Origin: Paracoccaceae bacterium
Lineage (GTDB): Bacteria > Pseudomonadota > Alphaproteobacteria > Rhodobacterales > Rhodobacteraceae
Direction of reading: 5' to 3'
DNA length: 34,026 bases
Assembly (NCBI GenBank): GCA_007694945.1
Contig: REER01000049.1
Span: forward strand, 1 to 34,026
Each line of letters opens with the position of its first letter. Position 1 is the stretch's first letter. Positions 3,039 to 23,515 of this stretch are shown here, in pieces. Below the pieces are notes generated by a model. The model was not told where the DNA came from. It saw only the letters and a list, made by a program, of their open reading frames with translations, and ran no database searches. The translations under genes and the position numbers were made by a program.

Positions 3039-3986
3039 ATGTCTGAGATTTTTTCCACGCGCAGGACTGCGCTAGCCGGGGTTATGGCCGCATGCATTGT
3101 CGCGGTGCCCGCCATGGCGCAGGATTTTCCGAGCCGGGCGATCGAGTATATCATCCCCTTCAACCCGGGCGGTGAGTCCGACGTAACGGCCCGCCTGCAA
3201 GAGCCGTTGATGGAAGAGGCGCTCGGTATCAGCGTGAATGTCCGTCACCAGCCCGGTGGCGGTGGCGCCGTTGCCTGGGCCGATTTTCAGGCCAATGCCG
3301 AGCCCGACGGGCATGAAATCATCGGCATCAACATTCCGCATATCGTGGCACAGCCGATCCAGCGCGCCGATGCAGGCTATACAACCGAGGGCTTCGACAT
3401 CATCACCTGGTTCCACATGACGCCGCATGTCGTGGTGGTGCGTGAGGACAGCCCGTTCCAGACGCTGGACGACATGATCGAATTCGCGCGCGAGAATCCG
3501 CAATCGCTGACAGTTGGCGGCAGTGGAACCTTTTCGGGCAACCATCTGGAGGCCTTGCGTCTGCAGGAACTCACCGATGTTCAGATCACCTATATCCCCT
3601 TCACCGGGACCGGCCCCTTGCCCGCGGCGATCCTCGGCGGGCATGTTGGTGCCGTGATCTCGAATTCGACCCTTGGTGTCGAGATGGGCGATAATGTGCG
3701 CGTGCTCGCCGTTGCCTCGGAAGAGCGGCTGGAAACTCTGCCCGATGCGCCGACCTTCCGTGAACTTGGGCTGGATATCGTCGGCGGCACTTATCGTGGT
3801 GTTGCCGTGCCGAATGGCACAGCGCCCGAGATTATCGAGGTGCTGGCGGATCTGTTCACCGAGATGAATCAGACCCTCGGCGAACGTCAGGTTCCGATGG
3901 GCTTCCAGATGACGGATATCCGCGGCGAGGATGCCATCGACCTCATGGTGCGTCTGCGTGAGCAGTACGGCGATTTCCTGAACTGA
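3039..3986 (+). CDS. tctC: TTT transporter substrate-binding protein (TctC/Bug family)
   Basis: This is the periplasmic solute receptor of a tripartite tricarboxylate transporter, 315 residues, the normal family length. Residues 1-27 form a signal peptide with an Arg-Arg pair, a hydrophobic core and an AMA cleavage site before Gln28. The mature part begins with the Bug-family pattern FPSRAIEYIIPFNPGGESD, and the family loop GTGPLPAAILGGHVGA is present near residue 190. A strong ribosome site, GGGAGGAG, precedes the ATG. The tctA-tctB permease genes follow after a 113-bp gap holding a hairpin. Bug proteins bind small carboxylates. With suyAB in the same window and a shared operator, 3-sulfolactate is the likeliest ligand (an SlcH-type protein), but the sequence alone does not prove it. 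Confidence 0.9.
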   Translation: MSEIFSTRRTALAGVMAACIVAVPAMAQDFPSRAIEYIIPFNPGGESDVTARLQEPLMEEALGISVNVRHQPGGGGAVAWADFQANAEPDGHEIIGINIPHIVAQPIQRADAGYTTEGFDIITWFHMTPHVVVVREDSPFQTLDDMIEFARENPQSLTVGGSGTFSGNHLEALRLQELTDVQITYIPFTGTGPLPAAILGGHVGAVISNSTLGVEMGDNVRVLAVASEERLETLPDAPTFRELGLDIVGGTYRGVAVPNGTAPEIIEVLADLFTEMNQTLGERQVPMGFQMTDIRGEDAIDLMVRLREQYGDFLN

Positions 3987-3997
3987 ACTCTCGGCGT

Positions 3998-4024
3998 CGC
4001 ACTCCTGCTAGCTGCAGGAGTGCG
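3998..4024 (+). other. Intercistronic hairpin between tctC and tctA
   Basis: A perfect 11-bp inverted repeat, CGCACTCCTGC / GCAGGAGTGCG, encloses a 5-nt loop (TAGCT). It starts 12 nt after the tctC stop. No T-run follows, so it is unlikely to be a full terminator. Hairpins here are typical for transporters that need more binding protein than permease: they slow 3'-to-5' decay or cause partial termination. Confidence 0.65.
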
Positions 4025-4098
4025 CCACGCTTATTGAAAGCTAGAGTCACGGGCTCGGCGCGACCGACCCCGCATCCTGCGTCCGAAAAAGGATCGTG

Positions 4099-5604
4099 AT
4101 GGACATCCTGATTGCAGCGGCACTGGCCGTGCTGCAACCCCATATGCTGATTATCATTCTGCTTGGTGTGACAGCAGGGTTGTTTGTCGGGGCCTTGCCG
4201 GGCCTGACGGCGACCATGGCGCTTGCGCTGATGCTACCCTTCACCTTCACGCTTGATGCGCTGGAGGGGCTGGTCGCCCTAGGCGCCGTCTATATGGGCA
4301 CGATCTATGGTGGCGCATTCACGGCGATTCTTCTCAACACGCCGGGAACGCCGTCGTCGATTGCGACCACCTTTGATGGCCACCCGATGGCGAAACAGGG
4401 GCGCGCACTCGAGGCAATCAGCGTCGCCACCATAGCCTCTGTGGTCGGTGGGGTGGTCGGTGTCACATTCTTGCTGATCGCGGCGCCGCCGCTTGCTCAA
4501 CTTGCGCTCAAATTCGGCCCGGCCGAGATGTTCTGGGTCGCCATCCTCGGGCTAACACTGATCGGCTCGCTTGCCACAGGGTCCTTGCTCAAGGGGCTTC
4601 TGGGGGGGGCTATCGGGCTTCTGATCGGTACCATCGGTATTTCGCCCATTGGCGGCGAGAGCCGCTTCACATTTGGCTGGCCACCCCTTCAGGCTGGAGT
4701 GTCGCTGATCGTCGCGCTGATCGGGCTGTTCGTGATCCCCGAGCTTTTACAGATGATCCGGCGCGGGCAGGCATCACTGGAACCTTCCGATACTATCGGG
4801 AACACGGGCTTTCAGTTCATGTCGGCTCTGCGGACGGTCCTGTCAAAACCAGTCAATTTGGTCCGCTCCTGTGCCATCGGGCAGGTCATCGCCGTGATCC
4901 CCGGCGCAGGTGGGTCGATCACGTCTCTGGTCGCCTATAACGAGGCGAGGCGTTGGTCAAAAACACCCGAAACCTTCGGCAAGGGCAATCCGGAGGGGAT
5001 TGTCGCTTCCGAGTCGAGCAATAACGTGATGGTCGCGGGCTCCATGGTGCCACTCCTGACCCTCGGGATTCCTGGCGCCCCGCCCGATGCGATCATTCTG
5101 GGCGTGATGCTCCTGCATGGGTTACGTCCGGGGCTCGATCTCTTTACTCAGACCGGGGTGCTGGCGAATGGCTTCATAATCTCGATGGGGCTCGCCGCAT
5201 TGATGCTGGCGCCAATCGGGCTGCTGGGCGGAAGACTGATCTATCGGGTCATCATTCGCACCCCACATTACTTCCTCGTTCCGACAATCCTGATCGTCAC
5301 CATCCTCGGAACCTATGCGCTGCGCAACAATGTCATCGATGTCGCAATCATGCTGGGGCTCGGTGTCGTGGGCTTTCTGATCCGCGGGCTTGGCCTGCAT
5401 GCGGCGCCCATTGTGCTGGGGCTCATTCTGGGCACGATTGCGGAACAGGGCTATGTGCAATCGGTGCTTGGTGGAATGGCGCTCGATATTCCCCAGCTTC
5501 GCCTCGTCGCCAATCCGCTCAGTCAGGTTCTGATCGCGCTGATTGTGCTGGTAATCGTCTGGGCCGCATGGCCCAAACGGTTCAGCCGAAAGAAACAGGG
5601 TTAG
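4099..5604 (+). CDS. tctA: TTT transporter large permease (TctA family)
   Basis: A 501-residue polytopic membrane protein with about 12 hydrophobic segments. It shows the TctA hallmarks: PGLTATMALALMLPFTF near residue 35, NTPGTPSSIATTFDGHPMA near residue 80, IPGAGGSIT near residue 270, and IPGAPPDAIILGVMLLHG near residue 325. The start is set at ATG 4099 because AAAAAGGA lies 5 nt before it; GTG 4096, one codon earlier, would be too close to that site. It transports the ligand delivered by the TctC protein using an ion gradient. It is followed after 4 nt by tctB, so the two permease subunits are translated together. Confidence 0.93.
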   Translation: MDILIAAALAVLQPHMLIIILLGVTAGLFVGALPGLTATMALALMLPFTFTLDALEGLVALGAVYMGTIYGGAFTAILLNTPGTPSSIATTFDGHPMAKQGRALEAISVATIASVVGGVVGVTFLLIAAPPLAQLALKFGPAEMFWVAILGLTLIGSLATGSLLKGLLGGAIGLLIGTIGISPIGGESRFTFGWPPLQAGVSLIVALIGLFVIPELLQMIRRGQASLEPSDTIGNTGFQFMSALRTVLSKPVNLVRSCAIGQVIAVIPGAGGSITSLVAYNEARRWSKTPETFGKGNPEGIVASESSNNVMVAGSMVPLLTLGIPGAPPDAIILGVMLLHGLRPGLDLFTQTGVLANGFIISMGLAALMLAPIGLLGGRLIYRVIIRTPHYFLVPTILIVTILGTYALRNNVIDVAIMLGLGVVGFLIRGLGLHAAPIVLGLILGTIAEQGYVQSVLGGMALDIPQLRLVANPLSQVLIALIVLVIVWAAWPKRFSRKKQG

Positions 5605-5608
5605 GGGC

Positions 5609-6061
5609 ATGTATATCCGGATCAATACCGAACTTCTGAGCGGTCTGCTGGGGCTGGCACTTGCGGCCATCTTCTGGTTCAACATCGGCGATCTCGGCTT
5701 TCTGAGCGCAGTCTTTCCCAACTCGGTCCTGCTGTTTCTGGCCGTCGTCTCGGGGCTGCTGGTTCTGGTCGGACTATTCGCAGGTGAGCCCGTCACCATC
5801 GACATGCGTGGTGTGATCCCAGTCGTATTCGGAATTGCGCTATTGGCGATCTGGTGGCTGGGCATTCGCCATGTCGGCTTTGTGACGACGTCGGTGCCAC
5901 TCTTCGCGATACTGGCGCTCGTGCTGAAGCGGCGGCAAGGACCGCTCAGCCTGCGCGATGTCATCACGGCTGTTGTCGTAGCCTGTGTTGTCGTGGGCGG
6001 TTTCTTTTGGGTCTTCAGCGAGCTTCTAGGCATCCGCCCTTTCCGCGCGCCGTTCCCCTGA
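5609..6061 (+). CDS. tctB: TTT transporter small permease (TctB family)
   Basis: A 150-residue membrane protein with four hydrophobic segments (about residues 8-30, 34-55, 70-88 and 110-138), the usual size and topology of TctB. Sequence similarity within this family is low, so the call rests on topology and on its place directly after tctA (4-nt gap, GGGG before the ATG). It completes the tctC-tctA-tctB transporter. The gene converges on the hydroxyacid dehydrogenase gene with 41 bp between the stop codons. Confidence 0.85.
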   Translation: MYIRINTELLSGLLGLALAAIFWFNIGDLGFLSAVFPNSVLLFLAVVSGLLVLVGLFAGEPVTIDMRGVIPVVFGIALLAIWWLGIRHVGFVTTSVPLFAILALVLKRRQGPLSLRDVITAVVVACVVVGGFFWVFSELLGIRPFRAPFP

Positions 6062-6072
6062 TCTGCCGTGCC

Positions 6073-6094
6073 CGCCCTGCCTGACCGCAGGGCG
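6073..6094. terminator. Hairpin between convergent tctB and dehydrogenase genes
   Basis: An 8-bp stem, CGCCCTGC / GCAGGGCG, with a 6-nt loop lies in the 41-bp gap between two convergent stop codons. It has no T-tail on either strand, so it is a weak candidate for a shared bidirectional terminator. Confidence 0.4.
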
Positions 6095-6102
6095 CGCATG
6101 CC

Positions 6103-7026
6103 TCAGCCCGCAAGGTGGCGGGCAACGTTCTGAACCGTGATCCAGCTAATCCGCGTATTCGATTCCACCGTGACCCCGGCGATATGTGGCGTCGCAATCA
6201 GGTTGGGCACGCCTTGGAGGACAGAACCTGCGGGCAAGGGCTCGCTGTCGAAGACATCAAGCGCAGCACCGGCCAGATGACAGCTTGATAGGGCTGCGGC
6301 CAGTGCCGCCTCATCCACGATCCCGCCGCGGGCGGTGTTGACCAGCACGGAGCCCGGCTTCATGCGCGCCAGGTTTGCCTCATCGAGCATGTTACGGGTC
6401 TGATCGGTCAGCGGCACATGCAGGCTCAGCGCGTCCGAGACCTTGAGTAGAGCTTCGACGCTTGCGCAGTGCTGAACCCCCTCCCAGACCGGGTTGTCGG
6501 GGGGGACAAACGGGTCCAAGGCCGCGATCTGCATCCCCATGGCCTGCGCTCGGGTGGCGACAGCCTGCGCAATTGCTCCGAAGCCCAGAAGCCCCAGCGT
6601 TGCGCCCGCGACCTCCAGCCCCATCATCCGCTGGCGCGGCCATGCGCCCGCCAGCACATCGGCACTCCCCATCCAGGCCTTGCGGCGCAGCATCAGGATC
6701 GCCGTGATGACATATTCCGCGACCGAGACCGCATTGCCCCCGGTGGCCGGAAACACCGCCACATCACGGGCCTTGCAGGCCTCAAGGTCGATATTGTCAA
6801 GCCCGACGCCTAGGCGCCCCACAGCTTGCAGCTTGGGGCTGGCGGCCAGCAACTCTTCACGCACCTGCGTGCGATTGCGCACGATCAGACCTCGCGCTTC
6901 AGCACAGGCCACATTCAGCTGCGCGGGGTCATCGACAAGGCTTGGGTCATAGGTGACCGCGAACCGCTCGCGCAGCCAATCGACCGCAGGCTCGTCCATG
7001 AATTCCGAGATCACGATATCCGACAT
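6103..7026 (-). CDS. D-isomer-specific 2-hydroxyacid dehydrogenase; SlcC-type (S)-sulfolactate dehydrogenase candidate
   Basis: An NAD(P)-dependent 2-hydroxyacid dehydrogenase of 307 residues. The Rossmann motif GFGAIA is at residues 148-153, with an acidic residue (Asp171) after the second strand that favours NAD. The catalytic triad is Arg233 (NTARGGIVDE), Glu262 (SEPLP) and His281 (ATPHIAG). The start is ATG 7026, preceded by GAGGGGGA; the open frame extends 86 codons further but overlaps the upstream gene. It is the last gene of the minus-strand operon and lies next to the TTT transporter. The characterised (S)-sulfolactate dehydrogenase SlcC belongs to this superfamily and works with ComC to invert sulfolactate before SuyAB. 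That context makes SlcC a good guess; a glyoxylate/hydroxypyruvate reductase or a sugar-pathway enzyme are the alternatives. Confidence 0.85.
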   Translation of the reverse strand: MSDIVISEFMDEPAVDWLRERFAVTYDPSLVDDPAQLNVACAEARGLIVRNRTQVREELLAASPKLQAVGRLGVGLDNIDLEACKARDVAVFPATGGNAVSVAEYVITAILMLRRKAWMGSADVLAGAWPRQRMMGLEVAGATLGLLGFGAIAQAVATRAQAMGMQIAALDPFVPPDNPVWEGVQHCASVEALLKVSDALSLHVPLTDQTRNMLDEANLARMKPGSVLVNTARGGIVDEAALAAALSSCHLAGAALDVFDSEPLPAGSVLQGVPNLIATPHIAGVTVESNTRISWITVQNVARHLAG

Positions 7027-7037
7027 GCTCGTCCCCC

Positions 7038-8153
7038 TCACGCAGCCGAAGCGGCCGGATGACCATTTGCGCGCAAGTCGATCACCTGATGCGTGCGGAT
7101 CGACTGCTCGGCAGCCTCGCCCACCAGCACCGACCAATAGCCATCGGCCAGACTGACCTCGGGGGCGCCCTGCCCCGCGCGCACCAGTTCCAGAAACCGT
7201 GCATGCTGGAAATAGGTCGAGCCGTGATGGTCGCCCGCGCGCAGGATTCGCGGGTCCACCTCGACCACTTCGCGGGTCTCGCATTTGGTGGCGCGGTCGG
7301 AGATCACGAATTCCGAATGACGCTCCTGCTCGTCAGGGGCGAAACGCGCCGGGCCGGGCACACAGGCATCCAACCGCGCCTTGTCGCCGGTGACCGAGAC
7401 AACCTCCTGCCAATGCGAGCCCTCTGCGAACATGCACAGCTCCAGCATGGCGCGGGCGCCATTGGCGAAATCGACGGTCACGAAACCATGATCTACCATA
7501 TCGGGGATGCGCCCGTCATAGCGCTCGTCCTTGTGGTTCACATCCGCGCCGCCGCTGGCATAGACGCGGATCGGGTCCGAATTCAGCAGCAGGCGCATCA
7601 GGTCGAAGAAATGGCAGCATTTTTCGACCATCGTGCCGCCCGTTCGCGTGTTGAAGCGGTTCCAGTCGCCGACCTTTTCCAGAAACGGAAAGCGATGCTC
7701 GCGGATCGAGACCATTCGCGGGGTGCCCGCGCGCCCCTCGGCGAGTGCTGCGCGCAGCCGTTCCACGGGGGGCATGTAGCGATATTCCATCGCCACCCAG
7801 ACCGGTGCGCGCCGCCCGTCGGCGGCCTGCATCAGCGCGCGGCAATCGGCAGCATTGGTCGCCAGCGGCTTTTCGCAGAGGATCGGTTTGTCAGTTGCCA
7901 GCAGATCGCGCATGAGCCCCGCATGCAGGTCATTCGGCGCAGCCAGAACGTAAGCGTCGCAAATATCGACCGTGAGCAGGGCGCGATGGTCACTGAACGC
8001 CTCTGCGCCCGTCAAAGCCTGCGCTTGTGCGCGCATCCCATCATGCGGATCGCAGACCGCGCTCACGTGCGCGCCGTCGAGCAGCGCGATATTGCGCATA
8101 TGCTCTTGCCCCATCATGCCGGAGCCGATGATGCCATATCGGATGGGTTCCAT
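7038..8153 (-). CDS. Gfo/Idh/MocA family protein; possible NAD-dependent glycosidase (sulfoquinovosidase-like)
   Basis: A 371-residue protein of the Gfo/Idh/MocA fold. An N-terminal Rossmann domain carries GSGMMG at residues 10-15, the family motif CEKPLA is at 93-98 (Glu94, Lys95), and the C-terminal domain contains GGTMVEKCCHFFD at 172-184 with His181 and Asp184 in the usual active-site region. Family members oxidise sugars or inositols. Others, such as GH109 and the NAD-dependent sulfoquinovosidases (GH188), use transient oxidation by bound NAD to break glycosidic bonds. The operon already contains an SDR sugar dehydrogenase, so a glycosidase role is attractive; it would release sulfoquinovose if the locus is a sulfo-ED cluster. 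The fold is certain. Whether it is a dehydrogenase or a glycosidase is not decided by the sequence. Confidence 0.85.
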   Translation of the reverse strand: MEPIRYGIIGSGMMGQEHMRNIALLDGAHVSAVCDPHDGMRAQAQALTGAEAFSDHRALLTVDICDAYVLAAPNDLHAGLMRDLLATDKPILCEKPLATNAADCRALMQAADGRRAPVWVAMEYRYMPPVERLRAALAEGRAGTPRMVSIREHRFPFLEKVGDWNRFNTRTGGTMVEKCCHFFDLMRLLLNSDPIRVYASGGADVNHKDERYDGRIPDMVDHGFVTVDFANGARAMLELCMFAEGSHWQEVVSVTGDKARLDACVPGPARFAPDEQERHSEFVISDRATKCETREVVEVDPRILRAGDHHGSTYFQHARFLELVRAGQGAPEVSLADGYWSVLVGEAAEQSIRTHQVIDLRANGHPAASAA

Positions 8154-8184
8154 CCCGTGTCTTCCTTTCGTTTCCCTCGCCGGA

Positions 8185-8943
8185 TCAGTTCAGTGTCAGC
8201 CCGGCATCGACTATGAAATCCTGCCCGGTGCAGCCTGCGCTCGCATCCGAGGCGAGAAACAGCACCATAGGCGTGACGTGTTTGGGCTCGAGGCGGAATT
8301 TCAGCGCTTGAAGCGTCAGAAACTCGACGTTCTTCTCGGGCGTGAGCCAAAGCTTCGCCTGACGCTCGGTCAGGATTGCACCCGGCACGACGGAATTGAC
8401 ACGGATGCCCTGAGGCCCGAGTTCCTGCGCAAGCGTGCGTGTCAGCCCGTGAATCGCGGCCTTGGCGGTGGTGTAGCCCAGCATGCCGGGCCGCCCACGC
8501 ATCCAGCTGATCGAGCCCATGTTGATGATACTCCCGCCGCCTGCTGCGGCCATACCAGGCGCAACGGCCTGCGCGGCAAAGACATGATGCGAGAGGTTGG
8601 TGGCGAGGCAGTCGCGCCAATAGTCCGGGGTGAGATCTGCAAAATCATGGCGGTCATCGCGGGCGGCGTTGTTCACGAGCACAGTGAACGGGCCAGTGGC
8701 ATCCTGCAGTCGGGCGATGACCTGCGGCAGGGCGTCCAGATCGCGCATGTCGGCCTGAGCAAAATGCGCGCCGGTTTCCGCAGCAAGCTCTGCGCCCGCC
8801 TCGGCGTCAATATCGACCACGCCCACCTGCGCGCTCTGCGCGCGCAGTGCGCGCACGACATCCGCACCAAGGCCCGTGGCCCCGCCCGTCACCAGCACAG
8901 AGGCGCGCGCGAGTGAGGGGTAATGAACAAGCTCTGTCATCAT
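8185..8943 (-). CDS. SDR family sugar dehydrogenase (aldose/sulfoquinovose 1-dehydrogenase candidate)
   Basis: A classical short-chain dehydrogenase of 252 residues. It has the cofactor motif TGGATGLG at residues 19-26, Asp44 after the second strand (favouring NAD over NADP), NNAA at 91-94, and the catalytic Ser144, Tyr157 and Lys161 in the YxxxK arrangement. The start codon follows the stop of the lactonase gene with no gap; ATG 8943 and ATG 8940 are both possible. Coupling to an SMP-30 lactonase suggests oxidation of an aldose at C1 to a lactone. In the sulfo-ED pathway of Pseudomonas putida SQ1 the sulfoquinovose dehydrogenase belongs to this family. Other aldoses are equally possible on sequence alone. 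Confidence 0.88.
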   Translation of the reverse strand: MMTELVHYPSLARASVLVTGGATGLGADVVRALRAQSAQVGVVDIDAEAGAELAAETGAHFAQADMRDLDALPQVIARLQDATGPFTVLVNNAARDDRHDFADLTPDYWRDCLATNLSHHVFAAQAVAPGMAAAGGGSIINMGSISWMRGRPGMLGYTTAKAAIHGLTRTLAQELGPQGIRVNSVVPGAILTERQAKLWLTPEKNVEFLTLQALKFRLEPKHVTPMVLFLASDASAGCTGQDFIVDAGLTLN

Positions 8944-9810: not shown

Positions 9811-9819
9811 GCCCGCCTC

Positions 9820-10626: not shown

Positions 10627-10635
10627 CGCGTCCTC

Positions 10636-12375: not shown

Positions 12376-12419
12376 GCAAAAGCATACCGGAACCTGTTGA
12401 CCCCAATTGTGTCAGGAAT

Positions 12420-12435
12420 TTCCAATCGCTGCAAG
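12420..12435. promoter_or_regulatory. Weak second operator-like site near the dehydratase promoter
   Basis: Read on the minus strand, CTTGCAGCGATTGGAA matches 11 of 16 positions of the operator-like palindrome at 12561-12576 (minus-strand reading). It overlaps a poor minus-strand promoter candidate: TTGCAG, 17 nt, CACAAT. The match is degenerate and is recorded only because it would place both divergent operons under the same LacI-type regulator. Confidence 0.25.
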
Positions 12436-12530
12436 AATAGAAATCGAGAATCGGCAAGATTCGGAGGCGACATCTCTTATCTTTTCGCATAAGATTGTTT
12501 TTATTTGATTTTCCTTCCTGAACTCTCAGA

Positions 12531-12559
12531 TTGACAGCCAAAGATGCACGTGTTAGCAC
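12531..12559 (+). promoter_or_regulatory. Candidate promoter of the TRAP operon
   Basis: A consensus -35 box TTGACA (12531-12536) is followed after 17 nt by TAGCAC (12554-12559), a poor -10 match. It lies in the 243-bp gap between the divergent dehydratase and dctQ genes, about 60 nt before the dctQ start. The weak -10 and the adjacent palindrome suggest a regulated promoter. Confidence 0.45.
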
Positions 12560-12560
12560 T

Positions 12561-12576: not shown

Positions 12577-12618
12577 TTTGTTGGAGGCAAATGCGCGAGC
12601 TGGTGCAGGGAGGACACA

Positions 12619-13164: not shown

Positions 13165-13168
13165 GATC

Positions 13169-14455: not shown

Positions 14456-14485
14456 CGAACCAATCCAAAAGGGAGGAAACCTGAC

Positions 14486-15568: not shown

Positions 15569-15593
15569 ATCGCCATCTGCATGCGCAGAGGCT

Positions 15594-15635
15594 GGGGTGC
15601 GGTTGGGTCAAGACCTGACCGCACCCCTTTCGTTT
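15594..15635 (+). terminator. Rho-independent terminator after dctP
   Basis: A 10-bp perfect stem, GGGGTGCGGT / ACCGCACCCC, is extended inside by GGTC / GACC around an AA loop, and TTTCGTTT follows. It lies 26 nt after the dctP stop and 14 nt before the proposed GH116 start. The TRAP operon therefore probably ends here, and GH116-lacI depends on read-through or a separate weak promoter. Confidence 0.82.
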
Positions 15636-15648
15636 CAAACAGGTATTC

Positions 15649-18060
15649 ATGATCGTGGTAATGAAAGCCCAAGCGCCGGATAACGAACGCATCGCGCGTG
15701 TCTTTTGCTGCGGGGTCGGACGTGATGCAGTGGCCAGCGCCCCTGTCCCGGCACGGCCCAAGCCGCGCAGCCATGATGATGGTCCAGATTGCGGGCCTTT
15801 TCACGGAGGTCTCGGCGGACCGAATTTCGCGCGTAACCTGCGGGGGCATTTCGACCGCTGGCAGTTGGAGCCCGGACGCCACGGCACTCAGCGCATCGAC
15901 GCTGCGTTTCTCATGCTGCGCTGGCAGGAAGAGAATGGGCGGCGGGGCTATCGGCGTCTGAATATCGGCCCGGAGGGTTTCAAGGCGCAGCATCGGCGGG
16001 TTGCAGCGCTGTTTCCTTTTCTGATCGAGGAATACACCGATCCCGACCTGCCCCTTGTCGTAACCCTGACAGCCTTTTCTCCGATCATCCCGGGCGACAC
16101 TCCCCTCGCGCACTGGCCGGTCACGCTGTTTGATGTAACACTGACGCCCCGCGCAGGGGCGGGCCGGTTGACAGCGGCGGTCGGGATGATCTGGCCGAAC
16201 CTTCTCGGCTGGCACCTGCCTGAGCTGACTCCTGCGCGACGCGGCGCACATCTTTGGCCGGACCAGAGCCATTCCGGGCAGATCCACCATGCTGCGCCCG
16301 ACTACCCGGGGATGATCGGTGTGGTGCAGACGCATGCTCCCGAGCTTGACCTGCCGCCCCCCAACCCAGCAGGCGAGGTCGCCTTACTTGCCGCGGGCAT
16401 CGACTGGGACCTAGAGCGCGCAGTCAGTTTCAAGGCGGATCAAAACGCCCTTGGACGCCCGGATGCAGAGCAGAAATTCACCCTCGCGCATGTCGAGGCG
16501 GCTTTCGCCTCGGGCGCGGGCTGGGAGGGGTATGATCGCAGCTGGTCCGCGCATTGGCATGAACCACTTGCCGCGGCCGTTGCGGGGCGTTGTGTTCTGG
16601 ACAGCACGCGACATCTGTGCTTCTGCCTTGCGATGGATATCCCGCAGGTGCGCTTCGGCATGGGACGCCGCTGGTGGCGCGCTTATTGCGCGACATGGGG
16701 GCGCGAGGGCAATCAGGCCTCGGCGATGGCAAAGGCCGCAGTGCAGGAGGCAGATAGCTGGTTGGGCCGGATTGATGCATGGCACACAAGCATGCTGCGC
16801 GCACTGGGCGCAGATGCAGGAAGCATGATAAACGCCCTTGGTTTTCTGAGCGGTGGCGGGGCCGCATCGCTGGCCGGGCCAGTCCACGCCCCTAGAGAGC
16901 CAAAACCCTTGAGCGGCCCCGCGCATTTTGCACTGCTCGAGGGCATTGACTCAGGCTATTACTACTACAGCACGCTCGATCTGTGGGTCTATGCCTTCCC
17001 TGCCCTGTCGCTGACCTTCCCTGATCTGGCCGAAGCTGTGTTCCGAGATTTTCGCGACAGCATCAGCGCCACCGATGCGACCGAGCGCCCGATCTACCGC
17101 GATCAGCGCTTCGCCCCGATTCTGGTGCCGGGCAAGCTGCCACATGATCTCGGCTGCCCCGCCGAAGACCCGTTTATTCGCCTGAACGGCTATGTCATGC
17201 GCGATGACCCAAACCTGTGGAAAGACCACAACCCGGCCTTCATCATCGCCCACGCCCTGCATCGACACCTGACCGGCACACATAGTGACACTGCCGAATT
17301 CGACCTGCTCTGTGCGGCCGCAGAGTTCACCATCACACAGGATCGGGAAGGCACTGGCGTGCCGCCGCATGATGCCTTCGGCGACAGCACATGGGATAAT
17401 CTGCAGTTTCGCGGCCATTCGTGTTACGGCGCAGGACTCTGCCTTGCCGCATGGGCCGCGCTTGCGCGCGATGCGCATCGCTTGGGTCGCGACGCTGATG
17501 CTCAGCGTTTCGCGGAACTTGTCGAACACGCGAAACAGGCTATGGCCGGACTTTGGTGCAGGAAGGGGGGCTTTTTCCGCACCGCGAGCGAGGGGAAGTA
17601 TCGAAATGCAACGCAAAGCGATGCCCTTCTGGGGCCGCTTTATGCCCGCCTTGCCGGTCTGGGCGATCTGATTGACCCTTCCCGCGCCCGACAGCACTTA
17701 CGCGCAACCTTCGCACGCAATTTCGACACAGATGCACAGCGCGCAGTCGGCCCGCTACTGGTCGCGGACCCTGCCATCATCCGCTATGCGCAGGATGGGG
17801 GCGAGGAATTGCAGGTCAATGAGGTCATTGTCGGCTCTGCCCATATCTTCGCCACCTGCCTGAAGGTGTGGGGCCTTGAGGCCGAATACCGGGCGATGCG
17901 CGAGGCGATAACGCGCCATGAGGCGCGCGCAGGCTTGCAATTTCGCACGCCTGCGGCATGGGATGCCGAAGGGCAATTCCGCGCGCCGCTCAACATGCGC
18001 CCGATGGCCATATGGGCGAGCGCCATCGCAACGTCCGCAGCAAGGGAGTCTGCCGCATGA
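15649..18060 (+). CDS. GH116 family glycoside hydrolase (bacterial GBA2-like)
   Basis: A protein of up to 803 residues resembling the GH116 family (human GBA2 and thermophilic beta-glucosidase/beta-xylosidase). The N-terminal part holds GGLGGPNFARNLRGHFDRWQ, the family's start motif. The (alpha/alpha)6 domain aligns at LLEGIDSGYYYYSTLDLWVYAF, where Glu431 fits the nucleophile, at WKDHNPAFI, and at GDSTWDNLQFRGHSCYGAG, where Asp583 fits the acid/base. No signal peptide is seen, so it is probably cytoplasmic and would act on imported glycosides. GH116 enzymes are retaining beta-glycosidases. The start is uncertain: ATG 15649 and 15661 and a later GTG near 15730 are possible and none has a good ribosome site. 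It overlaps the regulator gene by 4 nt. Confidence 0.85.
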   Translation: MIVVMKAQAPDNERIARVFCCGVGRDAVASAPVPARPKPRSHDDGPDCGPFHGGLGGPNFARNLRGHFDRWQLEPGRHGTQRIDAAFLMLRWQEENGRRGYRRLNIGPEGFKAQHRRVAALFPFLIEEYTDPDLPLVVTLTAFSPIIPGDTPLAHWPVTLFDVTLTPRAGAGRLTAAVGMIWPNLLGWHLPELTPARRGAHLWPDQSHSGQIHHAAPDYPGMIGVVQTHAPELDLPPPNPAGEVALLAAGIDWDLERAVSFKADQNALGRPDAEQKFTLAHVEAAFASGAGWEGYDRSWSAHWHEPLAAAVAGRCVLDSTRHLCFCLAMDIPQVRFGMGRRWWRAYCATWGREGNQASAMAKAAVQEADSWLGRIDAWHTSMLRALGADAGSMINALGFLSGGGAASLAGPVHAPREPKPLSGPAHFALLEGIDSGYYYYSTLDLWVYAFPALSLTFPDLAEAVFRDFRDSISATDATERPIYRDQRFAPILVPGKLPHDLGCPAEDPFIRLNGYVMRDDPNLWKDHNPAFIIAHALHRHLTGTHSDTAEFDLLCAAAEFTITQDREGTGVPPHDAFGDSTWDNLQFRGHSCYGAGLCLAAWAALARDAHRLGRDADAQRFAELVEHAKQAMAGLWCRKGGFFRTASEGKYRNATQSDALLGPLYARLAGLGDLIDPSRARQHLRATFARNFDTDAQRAVGPLLVADPAIIRYAQDGGEELQVNEVIVGSAHIFATCLKVWGLEAEYRAMREAITRHEARAGLQFRTPAAWDAEGQFRAPLNMRPMAIWASAIATSAARESAA

Positions 18061-19109
18061 CCGAGCATCGCCAGCGCCGCTCGACCCAGCGCACAACCAT
18101 GAGCGATGTGGCGCGCGTCGCCGAAGTCTCGCCCTCCACAGTGTCGCTTTTCCTGCGCGAGCCCGATGCGGTCTCCGAAGCCCGCAGGCAGCGCATCCAG
18201 CGCGCCATCGACAGCTTGCGCTATGTGCCTAATCGTATGGCCGGTTCGCTGGCGGCGGCCTCGACGCGCGTCGTGGGGGTGATTGTTCCCTCGCTGGTCA
18301 ACAGCTTCTTTGCCGAGACCGTCAGCGCGCTGCAATCGGCGCTGATGGCAAACGGCTATCAGATCCTGATAGGGCACACCAATTATGACGCGGCCCGCGA
18401 GGAAGAGCTCGTGCGCACCTTTCTCTCCTGGTCCCCTTCTGCCATCGTGCTCACCGGGCTGGGGCATAGCAGGGTGACGCGCCAGATGCTCGAAAGCTCC
18501 AGCGTCCCCGTGGTCGAGATGTGGGAGGCCGGACCACAGCCCATCGACCTGATGGTGGGGTTCTCGCATGCCGATGTCGGGCGGCTCCAGACCCGCCACC
18601 TGATCGAGCGGGGGTGTCGGTCGATTGCCTTTATCGGCGCACAGCTCGACAAGGATGGGCGCGCCGCCCAGCGCGCGCAGGGCTATCGTGATGTGCTGAA
18701 TTCGCATACCACGCTGGCTCCGCCCGAGATTGTAATCGCCGACGCGCAAAGCGCTTCTGCCGGGGCCGTGGCGTTTGGAGCCCTTCTCGACAGGCGGCCA
18801 GAACTCGACGGTGTGGTGTTCTCCAATGACATCCTTGCCCTGGGCTCCTTTATGGAGGCCCAGCGCCGCGGCATTGCTATTCCCGAGCGGTTGCGGATGA
18901 TCGGATTCGGCGGGCTCGACTTCACCTCGGAAACTGTGGCCGATCTATCGACCATCGTACCGCCCCGGCGCGAGATCGGCGAACATGTTGCCGAGATGCT
19001 ACTTGCGCGCATCGAAGACCGCGAGACCCAGACGCGCATCATTCTGGACCCGGTTCCAGTGTACCGTCGCAGCACAGACGGCTCGAACACCAAGAAACGT
19101 ACAGCCTGA
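18057..19109 (+). CDS. LacI/GntR-type (LacI family) transcriptional regulator
   Basis: A 350-residue LacI-family repressor, closest in appearance to the gluconate repressor group. The helix-turn-helix lies at residues ~15-40 (MSDVARVAEVSPSTVSLFL), followed by the hinge region (YVPNRMAGSLAAASTRVVGV) and a periplasmic-binding-protein-like ligand domain to residue ~340. ATG 18057 overlaps the GH116 stop (ATGA), so the two are translationally coupled; an internal ATG at 18099 begins exactly at the helix-turn-helix and is an alternative. It probably responds to a sugar or sugar acid of the pathway. The likely target is the palindrome at 12561-12576 before dctQ. Confidence 0.93.
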   Translation: MTEHRQRRSTQRTTMSDVARVAEVSPSTVSLFLREPDAVSEARRQRIQRAIDSLRYVPNRMAGSLAAASTRVVGVIVPSLVNSFFAETVSALQSALMANGYQILIGHTNYDAAREEELVRTFLSWSPSAIVLTGLGHSRVTRQMLESSSVPVVEMWEAGPQPIDLMVGFSHADVGRLQTRHLIERGCRSIAFIGAQLDKDGRAAQRAQGYRDVLNSHTTLAPPEIVIADAQSASAGAVAFGALLDRRPELDGVVFSNDILALGSFMEAQRRGIAIPERLRMIGFGGLDFTSETVADLSTIVPPRREIGEHVAEMLLARIEDRETQTRIILDPVPVYRRSTDGSNTKKRTA

Positions 19110-19130
19110 CTCTCTTGTCCCGTCATCTGC

Positions 19131-19850
19131 TCATACATCAGCTTGATAATACAGGTTGTCAGTTCGTACGCAGGACTTGCGCAACTCGATGGGGCTGCCA
19201 TTGTAGTCCAGCGCAACCCGCGTAATCTCCAAAAGCGGTGCGCCGGGCGCAACGCCCAGTTCGCGCGCCTCTATGGCATCGGCGGTAACTGCCCGCAACT
19301 GTTCCTGCGCACGGTGGACAGTGGCGCCGAACTCGGTCTGATAGAGCTGGTAGAGGGTGTTGGGCAGGATTTCGGGGGCGTGTTCCAGCGGCGCGAAACG
19401 AGCGGCGTCAAGCAGGATGTGCTCGTAGAGTATAGGCACCCCATCTACTTCCCGCACGCGGCTAATGCGGATGACGGCAGCGCCCTCGGCAAGGCCAAGC
19501 AGGCGCGCATCCCACTCTTGCGCGCGCTCGCAGGCCCGTGACAGCACCCGGCTTTCAGGCTGCATGGTGCTGCCATCCTTGTGTCGCAGGTTGAAAAAGC
19601 GAAACAGGACAGCATCGCTGTCATGGCTCGCAACGACTGTGCCCTTACCCTGCCTGCGCTGCACAACGCCCTCAGCCGCTAGGTCCAGAAGCGCCTTGCG
19701 CAGGGTGCCTACGGCGACGCCATACTCTTCGGCCAGACGCGTCTCGGGTGGCAGATAGGTCCCGGGTGACCATTCGCCAGAATCGATCCGCGCCATGATC
19801 ATATCGCGCAACTGTCGATGTAGTGGTTGAAGAATGGGGCGGGCCGTCAT
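19131..19850 (-). CDS. GntR family regulator, HutC subfamily (UTRA domain); candidate sulfolactate regulator
   Basis: A 239-residue regulator with an N-terminal winged helix (residues ~8-75: YLPPETRLAEEYGVAVGTLRKAL, then GVVQRRQGKGTVV) and a C-terminal UTRA ligand-binding domain (~90-232), the HutC layout. AGGAGG lies 8 nt before ATG 19850. It is divergent from the dehydrogenase-suyA-suyB genes across 73 bp that hold a perfect palindrome. On the minus strand this sits just upstream of a consensus TATAAT, so autoregulation is likely. By position it is the regulator of the desulfonation operon and, via the related site at 2971, of the TTT transporter. The effector is inferred to be sulfolactate or a related acid. 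Confidence 0.92.
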   Translation of the reverse strand: MTARPILQPLHRQLRDMIMARIDSGEWSPGTYLPPETRLAEEYGVAVGTLRKALLDLAAEGVVQRRQGKGTVVASHDSDAVLFRFFNLRHKDGSTMQPESRVLSRACERAQEWDARLLGLAEGAAVIRISRVREVDGVPILYEHILLDAARFAPLEHAPEILPNTLYQLYQTEFGATVHRAQEQLRAVTADAIEARELGVAPGAPLLEITRVALDYNGSPIELRKSCVRTDNLYYQADV

Positions 19851-19862
19851 GCGATATCCTCC

Positions 19863-19896
19863 TTGACGATGCGATATTATATAAACTATATAGTTT
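19863..19896 (+). promoter_or_regulatory. Promoter of the dehydrogenase-suyAB operon with GntR operator
   Basis: TTGACG (19863-19868) and TATATA (19887-19892), 18 nt apart, form a plausible promoter for the plus-strand genes. The -10 lies inside the perfect 14-bp palindrome AAACTATATAGTTT (19883-19896). On the other strand a consensus TATAAT (19876-19881) serves gntR. One bound dimer could thus control both directions. A near-copy occurs at 2971-2984. Confidence 0.65.
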
Positions 19897-19923
19897 TACA
19901 ATACTCAGGGAGACGAAGCTAAT

Positions 19924-20931
19924 ATGCCGAGTGTCACGATCAGCCCGGATGCCGCCGAACAGCTCGTCCGCGCAGCCTTCACAGCGGCGGGAATGACCGA
20001 GGCCCTCGCGCTTCCGGCCGCACGAGCGCTGGTTCAGGCCGAGCAGGAAGGGCTGGCCTCGCATGGTCTCGCGCGGGTTCCGTTCTACGCCGCGCAGATG
20101 CGCGCGGGCAAGATCGCGCCCGATGTTGTGCCACAAGTCAGCCGCGACGGGGCCGTGATCCGGGTAGATGCGAGGTTCGGCCTCGCCTTTGCCGCCATCG
20201 AGGCCGGAGCAGAGGCCGCAAGGCAGGCGTTGCGCGAGCAAGGCCTCGCCGTTGTCAGCATCACCCATTCGCATCATTTCGGAGTGGCCGGTCAGGCAGT
20301 CGAGCCCTTTGCCCGCGAAGGTCTGCTTGCCCTCGCGCTTTCGAATTCGCCTGCGGCCATGGCCCCTTGGGGCGGCCATCGCGCGCTTTATGGCACGAAC
20401 CCGATCGCCTTTGCCTGCCCGCGCGCGACAGGCGCGCCGCTGGTGATCGACCTTTCGCTGAGCCATGTCGCGCGCGGCAAGGTGATGCTGGCGCAGAAAT
20501 CCGGCCAGCCCGTCCCCGAAGGCTGGGCGCTGGATGCGCAAGGAAACCCGACCACTGACGCAGATGCCGCGATGTCCGGCACCATGGTGCCATCGGGCGG
20601 CGCCAAGGGGGCCGCGCTGGCGCTGATGGTCGAGTTGCTGACCGCCGGGCTTGCGGGTGCAAACTTTGCCTTTCAGGCCAGTTCGCTTTTCGATGACAAG
20701 GGGCCCGCGCCCGATCTGGCGCATTTCATCCTCGCGCTCGACCCCGCCCGCTTCGCGCACGGTTTCACGGACCGCGCCGAGACCATGTTCGCGGCCATCG
20801 AGGCACAAGACGGCGCCCGCCTGCCTGGCGCGCGCCGTTTTGCAGAGCGCGCCGAACGCGCCGAGAGCATCCAGATTTCGGAACAGCTTCATGACACGTT
20901 GACAGGCCTTGCACAGGGCGTTGTCAGCTAA
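19924..20931 (+). CDS. Ldh2/MDH2 family dehydrogenase; ComC-type (R)-sulfolactate dehydrogenase candidate
   Basis: A 335-residue NAD(P)-dependent oxidoreductase of the LDH2/MDH2 family (PF02615), which has its own fold instead of a Rossmann domain. Family motifs are EGLASHGLARVPFYAAQMRAG near residue 40, ITHSHHFGVAGQAVEPFA near residue 115, and MAPWGGHRALYGTNPIAFACP near residue 143. Members reduce or oxidise malate, lactate, ureidoglycolate or sulfolactate. ComC, the (2R)-3-sulfolactate dehydrogenase, is in this family, and suyA-suyB follow directly (16-nt gap). Here it would interconvert sulfopyruvate and (R)-sulfolactate, the SuyAB substrate. The family call is firm and the substrate is inferred from context. 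Confidence 0.88.
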   Translation: MPSVTISPDAAEQLVRAAFTAAGMTEALALPAARALVQAEQEGLASHGLARVPFYAAQMRAGKIAPDVVPQVSRDGAVIRVDARFGLAFAAIEAGAEAARQALREQGLAVVSITHSHHFGVAGQAVEPFAREGLLALALSNSPAAMAPWGGHRALYGTNPIAFACPRATGAPLVIDLSLSHVARGKVMLAQKSGQPVPEGWALDAQGNPTTDADAAMSGTMVPSGGAKGAALALMVELLTAGLAGANFAFQASSLFDDKGPAPDLAHFILALDPARFAHGFTDRAETMFAAIEAQDGARLPGARRFAERAERAESIQISEQLHDTLTGLAQGVVS

Positions 20932-20947
20932 CCCAAGGGAGAGAACC

Positions 20948-21244
20948 ATGATCGCAAACACGCATCCACAATTGCTTGTCCATGACAAGGCCGACAATGT
21001 CGGTGTTGTCGTGGTCGAAGGTCTTACTGCTGGCACGGACATGCTCTGTGTCTGCACCGAAGACAATTCCGATTTCCGCCTGACTGCCAAGGCCGATATT
21101 CCAATCGGCCACAAGGTGGCACTCAAGGAACTGAAAGAAGGCGATACCATCATCAAATACGGCGAAGATATCGGCAAGATGGTCGGCCCCGCTGAAACCG
21201 GCGGCCATGTCCACACCCACAACCTGAAAACCAAACGCTGGTAA
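20948..21244 (+). CDS. suyA: (R)-sulfolactate sulfo-lyase small subunit SuyA (UxaA N-terminal/SAF domain)
   Basis: A 98-residue SAF-domain protein like the N-terminal part of altronate dehydratase: the pattern IPIGHKVALKELKEGD, KYGEDIG and GGHVHTHNLKT is typical. In SuyAB, as in split UxaA-type enzymes, this small subunit pairs with the large catalytic subunit encoded next. ATG 20948 follows AAGGGAGAG; an upstream in-frame GTG lies inside the preceding gene. The complex splits (R)-3-sulfolactate into pyruvate and sulfite. The alternative reading, altronate dehydratase small subunit, is less likely because the large subunit lacks UxaA-like sequence details and an anion exporter follows. Confidence 0.82.
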   Translation: MIANTHPQLLVHDKADNVGVVVVEGLTAGTDMLCVCTEDNSDFRLTAKADIPIGHKVALKELKEGDTIIKYGEDIGKMVGPAETGGHVHTHNLKTKRW

Positions 21245-21256
21245 GGAGCGCGCATC

Positions 21257-22438
21257 ATGGCATTCGATTTCACGCAAGAAACCGTCAAGGCATGGCGCCG
21301 CGAGAATGGCCGCGTCGGCGTGCGCAACCATGTGCTCATCCTGCCGGTGGACGATATCTCCAACGCCGCCTGCGAGGCTGTGGCCAATAACGTCAAAGGC
21401 ACGATGGCAATTCCTCACGCATATGGCCGCCTGCAATTCGGCGAGGATCTGGACCTGCATTTCCGCACAATTATCGGCACGGGTGCAAACCCGAATGTGG
21501 CCGCTGTGGTAGTAATCGGGATCGAGCCGGAATGGACCAAGATCGTCGTCGATGGCATCGCCGCAACCGGCAAGCCGGTCGAGGGGTTCTGGATCGAGCA
21601 GAATGGCGATTTCGAGACCATCCGCAAGGCAAGCTGGAAGGCCAAGGAATTCGTCCATTGGGCAACCGAGTTGCAGAAAGAGGACTGCCCGCTGACCGAT
21701 CTCTGGGTTTCGACCAAATGCGGCGAATCCGACACCACGACCGGGCTGTCCTCCTGCCCCACAGTCGGCAACATGTATGACAAGCTGATCCCGCACGGGC
21801 TCTATGGCGTGTTCGGCGAAACCTCCGAGATTACCGGGGCCGAGCATATCTGCGCAAAGCGGGCTGCCAGCCCCGAGGCGGGCGAGAAGTTCATGAATAC
21901 CTTCCAGGCCTATCAGGATGAAGTCATCGAGCCTTTCAAGACCTCGGACCTGTCCGACAGCCAACCGACCAAGGGCAATATTCTTGGCGGCCTCACCACA
22001 ATCGAGGAAAAGGCACTGGGGAACCTCGAGAAGATCGGGCGGACCTCGACCTATATCGACGTGCTGGAACCCGCCGAAGCACCCGCCAAGGGCCGGGGCC
22101 TCTATTTCATGGACACCTCGTCAGCCGCTGCCGAATGCGTGACCCTGATGGCGGCTGCGGGCTATGTCATCCACACCTTCCCGACCGGGCAGGGCAACGT
22201 GGTGGGCAACCCGATTGTGCCGGTGATCAAGATCTCGGGCAATCCGCGCACCTTGCGGACCATGTCCGAGCATATCGACGTTGATGTGACGGGCGTGTTG
22301 CGCCGTGACATGACCATCGATCAGGCTGGTGATGCGCTGATCGAGATGATCAAGCGCACCGCGAACGGGCGCCACACGGCGGCCGAGGCGTTGGGCCATC
22401 GCGAATTCTCGATGACCAAGCTCTATCGTTCGGCCTGA
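21257..22438 (+). CDS. suyB: (R)-sulfolactate sulfo-lyase large subunit SuyB (UxaA C-terminal family)
   Basis: A 393-residue protein of the altronate/galactarate dehydratase C-terminal family. It begins with the family motif [20 protein letters not shown], then has [21 protein letters not shown] near residue 75 and [20 protein letters not shown] near residue 155, where UxaA has a KCGGSD-type sequence. [19 protein letters not shown] and [18 protein letters not shown] follow near residue 280. To my recollection this set fits SuyB better than sugar-acid dehydratases. It desulfonates (R)-3-sulfolactate to pyruvate plus sulfite with SuyA in an Fe-dependent lyase. AAGGAG precedes the ATG, and the gap to suyA is 12 nt. 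The downstream exporter supports sulfite production. Confidence 0.83.
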
Positions 22439-22462
22439 TCAGAACGCAGCAATACAGCCAGA

Positions 22463-22486
22463 CGGGCGGGCCGCGCGGCCCGCCCG
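22463..22486 (+). other. GC-rich hairpin between suyB and the exporter gene
   Basis: An 11-bp inverted repeat, CGGGCGGGCCG / CGGCCCGCCCG, lies 24 nt after the suyB stop and 24 nt before the next start. There is no T-run, so transcription probably continues into the exporter gene; the hairpin may act as an attenuator or stabilise the suyB mRNA end. Confidence 0.55.
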
Positions 22487-22510
22487 CTCCGTGATGGTGG
22501 GGCCAGCAGA

Positions 22511-23515
22511 ATGATGGACCGCGCGCGCACTGCGATTGCCCCGTTGGCACCGGGGCTGATGCTGGCCGCAACGATTGCCGCCGCCGCAAGCTTTCTGGGC
22601 GCGCATTACGATGCGCCTGTGATGCTCTTTGCCCTCCTGATCGGCATGGCCTTCAATTTCCTGCACAAGGACGGCCCCTGCCACGCGGGAATCGAATTCG
22701 CCGCGAAATTCATTCTACGTCTTGGGGTCGGGTTGCTCGGTATCCGCATCGCGCTGGACGATCTTGCTCAGATCGGTCTGTCCGGTGCTGCGATTCTGGC
22801 AGGGCTGATTGTCCTGACGATAACTACCGGCTTCATCGCCGCGCCGCTCTTCCGCCGTCAGTGGCGGTTCGCGCTGCTCACGGGCGGTTCGGTCGCGATC
22901 TGCGGAGCCTCGGCCGCGCTCGCGATTGCCGCTGTAATCCCACATAACGACAAGACCGAGCGCAACACGCTCTTTACGGTGATCGCCGTAACGGCCCTGT
23001 CAACCATAGCGATGGTGCTTTACCCGCTCCTGTTTCAGGTCTTGGGTTTCTCCGAATTGCAGCAGGGCTTTCTGCTCGGTGCCACGATCCATGATGTGGC
23101 GCAAGTGGTGGGGGCGGGGTTCTCGGTGTCGGACCGCGCTGGCGAGATCGCAACCATCACCAAGCTCTTTCGCGTGGCGATGCTGCCGGTGATCCTGATC
23201 GCAGTGGTTCTGGTGTTGCGCATGACCCAAATCGGCAAGGGCGAGGGGCGCATCCCACTTCTGCCGTGGTTCATGATGCTGTTTCTCGCGCTGGTGGGGA
23301 TCGGGAGTGCGGTCGAACTGCCGCAGGGGCTGGTCGCGCAGGTCGAGACGGCCTCGCGCGCCTGTCTGGTGACGGCCATTGCAGCGTTGGGGGTCAAGAC
23401 GTCGCTGAAGGCGCTGCGCGAGGTGGGCGGCGGGCATCTCGCCATCGTCGTGATCGAGACACTCGCGCTGCTGGGTCTCGCAATCGGCGCACTTCTGTTT
23501 CTCGACATCTTCTGA
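22511..23515 (+). CDS. YeiH/UPF0324 family putative sulfite/sulfate exporter
   Basis: A 334-residue membrane protein with about ten hydrophobic segments, of the YeiH/UPF0324 family (PF03601). Visible family patterns are FAAKFILRLGVGLLGIRIAL near residue 60, GGSVAICGASAALAIAAVI near residue 125, QGFLLGATIHDVAQVVGAGFSVS near residue 185 and IAALGVKTSLKALREVG near residue 300. Members next to desulfonation genes are regarded as sulfite or sulfate exporters. Its position as last gene of the suy operon fits removal of toxic sulfite made by SuyAB. ATG 22511 and 22514 are both possible. Transport direction and substrate are inferred, not shown by the sequence. Confidence 0.85.
   Translation: MMDRARTAIAPLAPGLMLAATIAAAASFLGAHYDAPVMLFALLIGMAFNFLHKDGPCHAGIEFAAKFILRLGVGLLGIRIALDDLAQIGLSGAAILAGLIVLTITTGFIAAPLFRRQWRFALLTGGSVAICGASAALAIAAVIPHNDKTERNTLFTVIAVTALSTIAMVLYPLLFQVLGFSELQQGFLLGATIHDVAQVVGAGFSVSDRAGEIATITKLFRVAMLPVILIAVVLVLRMTQIGKGEGRIPLLPWFMMLFLALVGIGSAVELPQGLVAQVETASRACLVTAIAALGVKTSLKALREVGGGHLAIVVIETLALLGLAIGALLFLDIF

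Follow-up and report, generated by a model that had tools for sequence, protein, structure and literature searches.

The stretch of DNA analysed here, called the window, comprises 34,026 nucleotides of a Paracoccaceae bacterium (contig REER01000049.1 of assembly GCA_007694945.1; contig C16 in our numbering) and belongs to a 3.18 Mb genome that is 95% complete in 145 contigs. Its genes were called from the list of open reading frames (ORFs) combined with Pfam scans of the window proteins. Positions 3039-23515 hold a locus that is predicted to degrade sulfoquinovose (SQ) by a sulfo-Entner-Doudoroff (sulfo-ED) pathway and to desulfonate the resulting sulfolactate. All genes named in an earlier note on this DNA were found there; the Gfo/Idh/MocA, tripartite ATP-independent periplasmic (TRAP) transporter, GH116-like, LacI-type and GntR/UTRA genes were absent from its list. 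The core of the locus is a six-gene operon on the minus strand with gaps of 0-31 bp, in the order IlvD-HpcH/HpaI-SMP30-short-chain dehydrogenase/reductase (SDR)-Gfo/Idh/MocA-hydroxyacid dehydrogenase. Its first gene (10636-12375, PF00920, IlvD/Edd) encodes the predicted 6-deoxy-6-sulfogluconate (SG) dehydratase. The predicted 2-keto-3,6-dideoxy-6-sulfogluconate aldolase (9820-10626, PF03328, HpcH/HpaI) and the predicted 6-deoxy-6-sulfogluconolactone lactonase (8944-9810, PF08450, SMP-30) were assigned by family and conserved order, and these three families in a single operon are the combination by which a sulfo-ED operon is recognised. They are followed by the predicted sulfoquinovose 1-dehydrogenase (8185-8943, SDR, PF13561), by SqgA (7038-8153), a predicted glycoside hydrolase (GH) 188-type NAD+-dependent sulfoquinovosidase, and by the candidate SlcC-like (S)-sulfolactate dehydrogenase (6103-7026, 2-Hacid_dh). 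The ORF list places the start of slcC at 7284; an ATG is found at 7026, 11 bp past the sqgA stop. The plus strand carries two groups, dctQMP-(GH116)-lacI, which is divergent from the operon, and comC-suyA-suyB-exporter.

The best PDB match of the SDR was the sulfoquinovose 1-dehydrogenase 9gwu, with 283 bits and 56% BLAST identity, against 224 bits for the runner-up. The pocket and catalytic residues of the Pseudomonas putida SQ dehydrogenase have been described (PMC12133307), and their published numbering is shifted by 13 relative to the 9gwu chain. Alignment with 9gwu revealed that the window SDR contains the sulfonate-pocket arginines R152 and R154 and also keeps D99, R101 and Q198 together with the catalytic tetrad N119, S147, Y160 and K164. 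The two arginines were not found in the next two PDB structures in the same alignment. When 295 genomes of the taxonomic family of the window were searched, 148 matching places were obtained. Among the 20 SDR loci taken from these (the window's included), only the window SDR had the stretch WMRGRPG; the other 19 lacked both this stretch and the pocket arginines. The signature WMRGRPG...YxxxK, which was derived from the window and 9gwu jointly and which SQ dehydrogenases lacking it would escape, did not match in 100 shuffles of the window. In a tree of 68 rows, for which a length filter kept 47 of the 50 chosen signature rows, the signature rows, 9gwu and the window SDR were separated with a support of 100/100 from the 19 SDRs of the same taxonomic family, proteins for which pentose activity is not established.

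When genome contigs were scanned for the signature and stretches of 2-8 kb were fetched, at least 119 signature stretches were obtained. All 119 listed had an SDR match, and in 113 of these another sulfo-ED gene or a sulfoquinovosidase was present nearby, within the fetched stretch. Among the matches listed (at least 119), GH31 occurred in 73, GH188 in 13 and both in none. Plasmids of Rhizobium, Microvirga and Shinella showed the order dehydratase-aldolase-lactonase-SDR-alpha-glucosidase-TauE/TSUP, followed in two of the three by a gene of the succinate-semialdehyde dehydrogenase (SSADH) type. The order dehydratase-aldolase-lactonase-SQ dehydrogenase predicted for the window matches that of these annotated rhizobial-type plasmid clusters, which supports its identity as a sulfo-ED operon. 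Two sulfo-ED clusters also contained aldose 1-epimerase genes (L254, 9857-10759; L244, 5438-6445), which are candidate sulfoquinovose mutarotases.

The Gfo/Idh/MocA protein SqgA matched in the PDB, at E values up to 1e-20, only 8zn9, 8qc3 and 8qc2 (368-410 bits), the last of which is the structure of a GH188 NAD+-dependent sulfoquinovosidase (PMC11465081). It keeps R166, L170 and K172 of the sulfonate site as well as the catalytic or sugar-binding K107, Y136, E189, H193 and H321 at the positions published in PMC10755693. These eight residues fit a chain offset of 13, by which the published Glu163 is one position off; a Glu stands at the neighbouring position. Judged by these GH188 residues, the gene at 7038-8153 appears to encode a sulfoquinovosidase. 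The earlier note had read the inner operon as sulfo-ED, and this is borne out by the pocket arginines of the SDR, its place in the SQ dehydrogenase clade and the GH188-type gene next to it; the sugar degraded is probably a sulfonated one.

SqgA matched at an E value of 1e-60 in 145 of the 295 family genomes, the window's own included. GH188 neighbourhoods of up to 10 kb on each side were fetched for the 20 closest homologues outside the own genome (57-71%) and 12 others, and in these 32 family loci no match to the window-type dehydratase, aldolase or lactonase was found. GH188 in this family therefore usually occurs without sulfo-ED genes, and the window pairs both. Three GH188 loci checked with Pfam carried a fucose-isomerase-family isomerase (L044, L058 and L045), accompanied by a PfkB kinase in L044 and L058 and a DeoC-type aldolase in L044; the genes checked at these loci form a set like that of the sulfo-Embden-Meyerhof-Parnas (sulfo-EMP) pathway. 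In GH188 sulfo-EMP-like clusters a gene for a MauG-type di-haem cytochrome peroxidase separates the TRAP genes from the rest (L044, 4930-6744; L056, 13819-15570; L058, 13842-15578; three of three proteins checked). In L045 (genome G057, 5381-16907) the GH188 and fucose-isomerase-family genes adjoin SlcC, GntR, SuyA, SuyB and ComC, possibly a tandem route of the sulfo-EMP type within the same family.

The second plus-strand group starts with the candidate ComC-like (R)-sulfolactate dehydrogenase (19924-20931, Ldh_2). It continues with the SuyA-like (20945-21244) and SuyB-like (21257-22438) proteins, the predicted subunits of (R)-sulfolactate sulfo-lyase, and ends with a YeiH-family protein (22511-23515, PF03601), a candidate exporter of sulfite or sulfate that scored below the cut-off of TIGR00698 (136 of 233 bits). 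SuyA and SuyB constitute a two-chain enzyme of the UxaA/GarD family. SuyA is without a Pfam match and was named by its position and conservation (62-99% where seen), and SuyB is identical by 87-88% to Paracoccus and by 68% to Cupriavidus pinatubonensis proteins that are encoded on plasmids. Sulfo-ED yields the S enantiomer of sulfolactate, SuyAB takes the R form, and SlcC and ComC invert the one into the other via sulfopyruvate (PMC12421959). The position of slcC under the sulfo-ED promoter would fit this required inversion. The two modules are physically combined in the window, as the earlier note had stated. Its description of the sulfo-ED genes as nested has to be amended: since slcC takes the sixth position in the sulfo-ED operon itself, the sulfo-ED and desulfonation tiers would be coupled and not merely nested.

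The arrangement was followed in 11 sister genomes of one Rhodobacteraceae-type lineage, most of whose names we take to be those of soda-lake studies. Gene maps show the best non-overlapping tblastn matches; most relatives are draft metagenome-assembled genomes, in which an absence may be a gap. The six-gene order was present on one contig in six sisters (G295, G299, G301, G302, G303 and G304; 75-94% protein identity). It was split across two contigs in the closest relative, Rhodobacteraceae bacterium CSSed165cm_253 (G300; 91-94% DNA identity), and only the SDR-SqgA-SlcC end was seen in G296, G297 and G305. In 10 of the 11 sisters slcC directly follows sqgA in the same orientation, with 73-93% identity. 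The recurrence of the six-gene order implies that the arrangement of the operon is not due to chance. In G300 the first contig carries SapC-slcC-...-aldolase and the second aldolase-dehydratase-dctQMP-lacI-gntR-comC-suyA-suyB. In G299 and G302 gntR-comC-suyAB-yeiH lies about 1.1 kb beyond the TRAP genes and lacI; the enzyme genes are on another contig, which breaks off inside the TRAP genes. G295 gave no match to SuyB and apparently lost the desulfonation tier. Short yeiH/gntR and SSADH-type remnants flank its sulfo-ED cluster (L248, 574-808 and 11713-11899), those of yeiH/gntR beside lacI. In G296, G297, G304 and G305 contig ends cut the locus or it was seen in part. Counting the window, 4 of 12 genomes have the modules linked, two of these by inference across a contig break; linkage was not observed in three, was apparently lost in one, and the remaining four are cut or partial.

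Beyond this lineage there are 10 genomes in which SuyAB abuts the SG dehydratase and an eleventh, G312, in which SuyAB is found within 2 kb of the dehydratase, with SlcC and ComC in between. G306, G307, G308 and G309, where it abuts, and G312 had been chosen for their promising-looking loci, and the 19 loci searched earlier for SuyB had been picked as interesting or related, so that their rate is no survey. For a survey, 50 of the 100 remaining signature loci were taken, about every second one. SuyB was present at an E value of 1e-100 in 15 of these 50 genomes. It abuts the SG dehydratase in six (G321, G327, G336, G354, G355 and G363), in two of which (G327 and G355) the SDR and the pair are on separate contigs, and lies on another contig in the other nine. 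SlcC, ComC and an SSADH-type gene are present as well at loci L254, L255, L326 and L331. The SDR tree separates the lineage of the window from an eight-row group that contains 6 of the 11 genomes with SuyAB beside the dehydratase; G312 is placed elsewhere and the other four are absent from the tree. The separate positions, together with the different layouts, suggest that the extended sulfo-ED pathway arose in at least two assemblies. 

The TRAP transporter DctQ-DctM-DctP (12619-15568, plus strand) occupies the same place in the sisters (84-99% where the stretch was seen) and is a candidate importer of sulfoquinovose or its glyceride. At the other end of the locus a tripartite tricarboxylate transporter (TTT) is encoded on the plus strand by TctC (3039-3986), TctA (4096-5604) and TctB (5609-6061). 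TctCAB is probably a late addition and a candidate sulfolactate importer: TTT genes adjoin SlcC in the same-genus genome G179 (L339) and lie beside SuyAB in L329, L332 and L333, and blastn found none between SapC and SlcC in G300. The TTT genes that the earlier note had counted among the flanks of the locus are thus absent at this place from the closest relative, though they adjoin SuyAB elsewhere. The LacI-type regulator (18078-19109, plus strand, start codon uncertain) adjoins the TRAP genes in the sisters. In the divergent promoter region (12376-12618) the near-palindrome TCGTAGCGCTGCGA at 12562-12575 has its CGCTGCG core in all nine aligned genomes and is the only exact match in the window; it is a candidate LacI-type operator. 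The SuyR-like GntR/UTRA regulator (19131-19850, minus strand) is divergent from comC in G300, G299, G302 and G303, and no GntR match was found beside comC in G298 and G301. In the intergenic region between both genes (19851-19923) the palindrome AAACTATATAGTTT at 19883 is whole in three of five aligned genomes and TATAAACTATA is unchanged in five of five.

The lineage-specific GH116-like glycosidase gene (15649-18060, plus strand, PF04685/PF12215) was considered as a member of the pathway and rejected: it was not at this place in G300, and 19 genomes and one plasmid gave no match to it in a search that had no positive control there, although the query found itself in the family search. Of the other 294 family genomes, five contained relatives, all of them distant (32-37% identity). 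Downstream, at 24971-31625, the window contains ordinary housekeeping genes (tRNA-Leu and the glutamine amidotransferase, TrpD-type, TrpC-type, MoaC, MoeA and LexA families).

In the pathway that we propose, the TRAP transporter would import sulfoquinovose or sulfoquinovosyl glycerol and SqgA would release sulfoquinovose. This would be converted by the SQ dehydrogenase, lactonase, dehydratase and aldolase to pyruvate and (S)-sulfolactaldehyde (SLA). The latter would be oxidized to (S)-sulfolactate by an aldehyde dehydrogenase, most probably the resident GabD, whose gene is on a different contig. SlcC would then form sulfopyruvate, ComC would reduce this to (R)-sulfolactate and SuyAB would cleave it to a second pyruvate and sulfite, which would be exported. 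The LacI-type regulator, a candidate repressor, may act on the sulfo-ED operon, slcC included, and on the TRAP genes, and the GntR-type regulator on comC-suyAB. From gene content, gene order, active-site residues, phylogeny and conservation we infer the activities, the transport substrates, the role of GabD and the co-expression, and we consider it likely that the locus represents such an extended sulfo-ED pathway from sulfoquinovose to pyruvate and sulfite.

Several observations weigh against this interpretation. The window encodes no SLA dehydrogenase; PF00171 matched 12 times in the genome and not once on the contig of the window. The locus is consequently not complete, as the earlier note had called it, and the step would have to be supplied from elsewhere. 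Sister G303, by comparison, has both an SSADH-type gene after slcC, as has G304, and next to it an aldose epimerase; no such mutarotase was found among the window genes scanned. The gabD gene on contig C5 (109529-111004), the sole match in the genome at an E value of 1e-110, encodes a protein 83-86% identical to the operon copies of G303 and G304. It was also considered as an operon gene that had moved, and this was rejected because gabD lies apart from the cluster in the relatives, too, and a mostly chromosomal clade (100/100) has the operon copies nested within it. In the PDB the C5 protein scored higher with the succinate-semialdehyde dehydrogenase 3jz4 (699 bits) than with 8c54 (676 bits), which we take to be RlGabD, a characterised SLA dehydrogenase. 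In human SSADH the counterparts of the arginines proposed to bind the sulfonate in RlGabD bind a carboxylate (PMC10599462), so that these residues would not discriminate between the substrates. It is nevertheless probably this resident GabD that supplies SLA oxidation. Furthermore, the best NCBIfam model of ComC, L-sulfolactate dehydrogenase, reached 184 of 500 bits, far under its cut-off; slcC adjoins sqgA in G298 but is inverted (68% identity); and the sulfo-ED and SuyAB modules are on separate contigs in G298, G301 and G303, which indicates that their linkage is not obligatory. Finally, each module has its own regulator, and an operator common to both was not found in the window, a search with two mismatches doing no better than chance. 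TCGTAGCGCTGCGA occurs there only once, which leaves joint control of the two modules unsupported.

The separate regulators and candidate operators, the separate contigs and the missing SLA dehydrogenase would all be expected of two independent neighbouring modules, one performing sulfo-ED with export of sulfolactate and the other, Tct-ComC-SuyAB, scavenging sulfolactate from outside. The TTT importer adjoining slcC and the yeiH/gntR remnants in G295, without a SuyB match, would agree with this as well. Such independence does not explain why slcC, which would serve little purpose in the absence of ComC and SuyAB, resides inside the sulfo-ED operon and is co-oriented behind sqgA in nearly all sisters, nor why SuyAB abuts the SG dehydratase in genomes elsewhere and SuyB accompanies the signature in part of the sampled ones; the TTT genes, moreover, are absent at this place in G300. 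We regard two independent modules as unlikely.

The identity of the sugar leaves less room. The earlier note had cautioned that these enzyme families also degrade arabinose, xylose and other sugars. Indeed, the window dehydratase scores above the cut-off of the NCBIfam model for L-arabinonate dehydratase (920 versus 882 bits) and the best NCBIfam model of the SDR is D-xylose 1-dehydrogenase, as if the inner operon served an ordinary sugar, e.g. L-arabinose or D-xylose. However, the SDR stays under the cut-off of that model (299 of 400 bits), has the sulfonate pocket and falls outside the clade of the 19 family SDRs, and SqgA has its sulfonate-binding residues. The arabinonate label is uninformative because the dehydratases of all three plasmid clusters of the same order bear it too. 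A pentose pathway was rejected on the residues and the tree of the SDR; an ordinary sugar seems extremely improbable to us, and the caution can largely be dropped. Sulfofucose or another sulfohexose in place of sulfoquinovose would have a precedent in the tandem sulfofucose-SuyAB pathway of Paracoccus, whose ED enzymes belong, bar one, to the sulfo-ED families (PMC12421959). Its dehydratase is of PF13378/PF02746, the key difference according to the same source, whereas that of the window is IlvD/Edd PF00920, and the window SDR is in one clade with 9gwu. This substrate is disfavoured by the dehydratase family and is very improbable.

The extended sulfo-ED pathway thus remains the preferred reading. 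Beyond the window, we lean towards the view that a minority of sulfo-ED bacteria desulfonate their own product by a pathway assembled at least twice, the SLA step being performed in some species by a GabD copied into the operon and in others, including that of the window, by a single chromosomal GabD. According to reviews, the sulfolactate of sulfo-ED is exported for other bacteria (PMC9594981, PMC12890257), the 2026 review having the pathway end in pyruvate and sulfolactate that others can mineralise (PMC12890257). The paper on sulfofucose calls both tiers in one bacterium unusual (PMC12421959). Extended sulfoglycolysis with SuyAB is already published for sulfo-transaldolase (sulfo-TAL), GH188/EMP-like and sulfofucose pathways, the last with experiments. 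In the open-licence PubMed Central literature, supplements being outside the scope, no publication of a sulfo-ED plus SuyAB locus for sulfoquinovose was found. If our reading is true, some of the sulfur in sulfoquinovose would be converted to sulfite within a single cell in these lineages, and the presence of sulfo-ED genes should not by itself be taken as a sign of sulfolactate release. As a marker, WMRGRPG...YxxxK may distinguish the dehydrogenases of SQ from those of other sugars, and the label 'arabinonate dehydratase' on a neighbouring gene is open to doubt.

Compared with the known sulfo-ED systems of P. putida SQ1 and Rhizobium leguminosarum, the window has the same four enzyme families, but GH188 instead of GH31 and a TRAP instead of an ATP-binding cassette (ABC) transporter, with slcC in the operon, comC-suyAB alongside and no SLA dehydrogenase in the cluster. 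Because of this last absence it is classed as a variant and not as an SQ1-type pathway. The sulfolactate cluster of Chromohalobacter salexigens, a stand-alone pathway, consists of SuyR, SlcHFG, SlcC, ComC and SuyAB and has the regulator type, the TTT transporter, the two opposite dehydrogenases and SuyAB in common with the window. SlcC and ComC are also mentioned in PMC12421959 and PMC9594981. The sulfo-ED variant of Vibrio is likewise without an SLA dehydrogenase; it has an SLA reductase instead (PMC13372026), and in this 2026 survey it ends in 2,3-dihydroxypropane-1-sulfonate (DHPS). Clusters of GH188 with SuyAB subunits in Actinobacteria bacterium IMCC26103 and in Clavibacter follow an EMP-like and not an ED route (PMC11465081). 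Those of sulfo-TAL with SuyAB in Thermotogae and Chloroflexi resemble the window in joining sulfoquinovose cleavage to SuyAB, by way of transaldolase (PMC9594981). The tandem sulfofucolytic-sulfolactate sulfolyase pathway of Paracoccus wurundjeri differs in its substrate sulfofucose, its dehydratase family, its ABC transporter and the lack of growth on sulfoquinovose, and the account of the pathway in PMC12421959 likewise identifies no SLA dehydrogenase; as in the window, an ED-type module and SlcC, ComC and SuyAB are united in one cluster.

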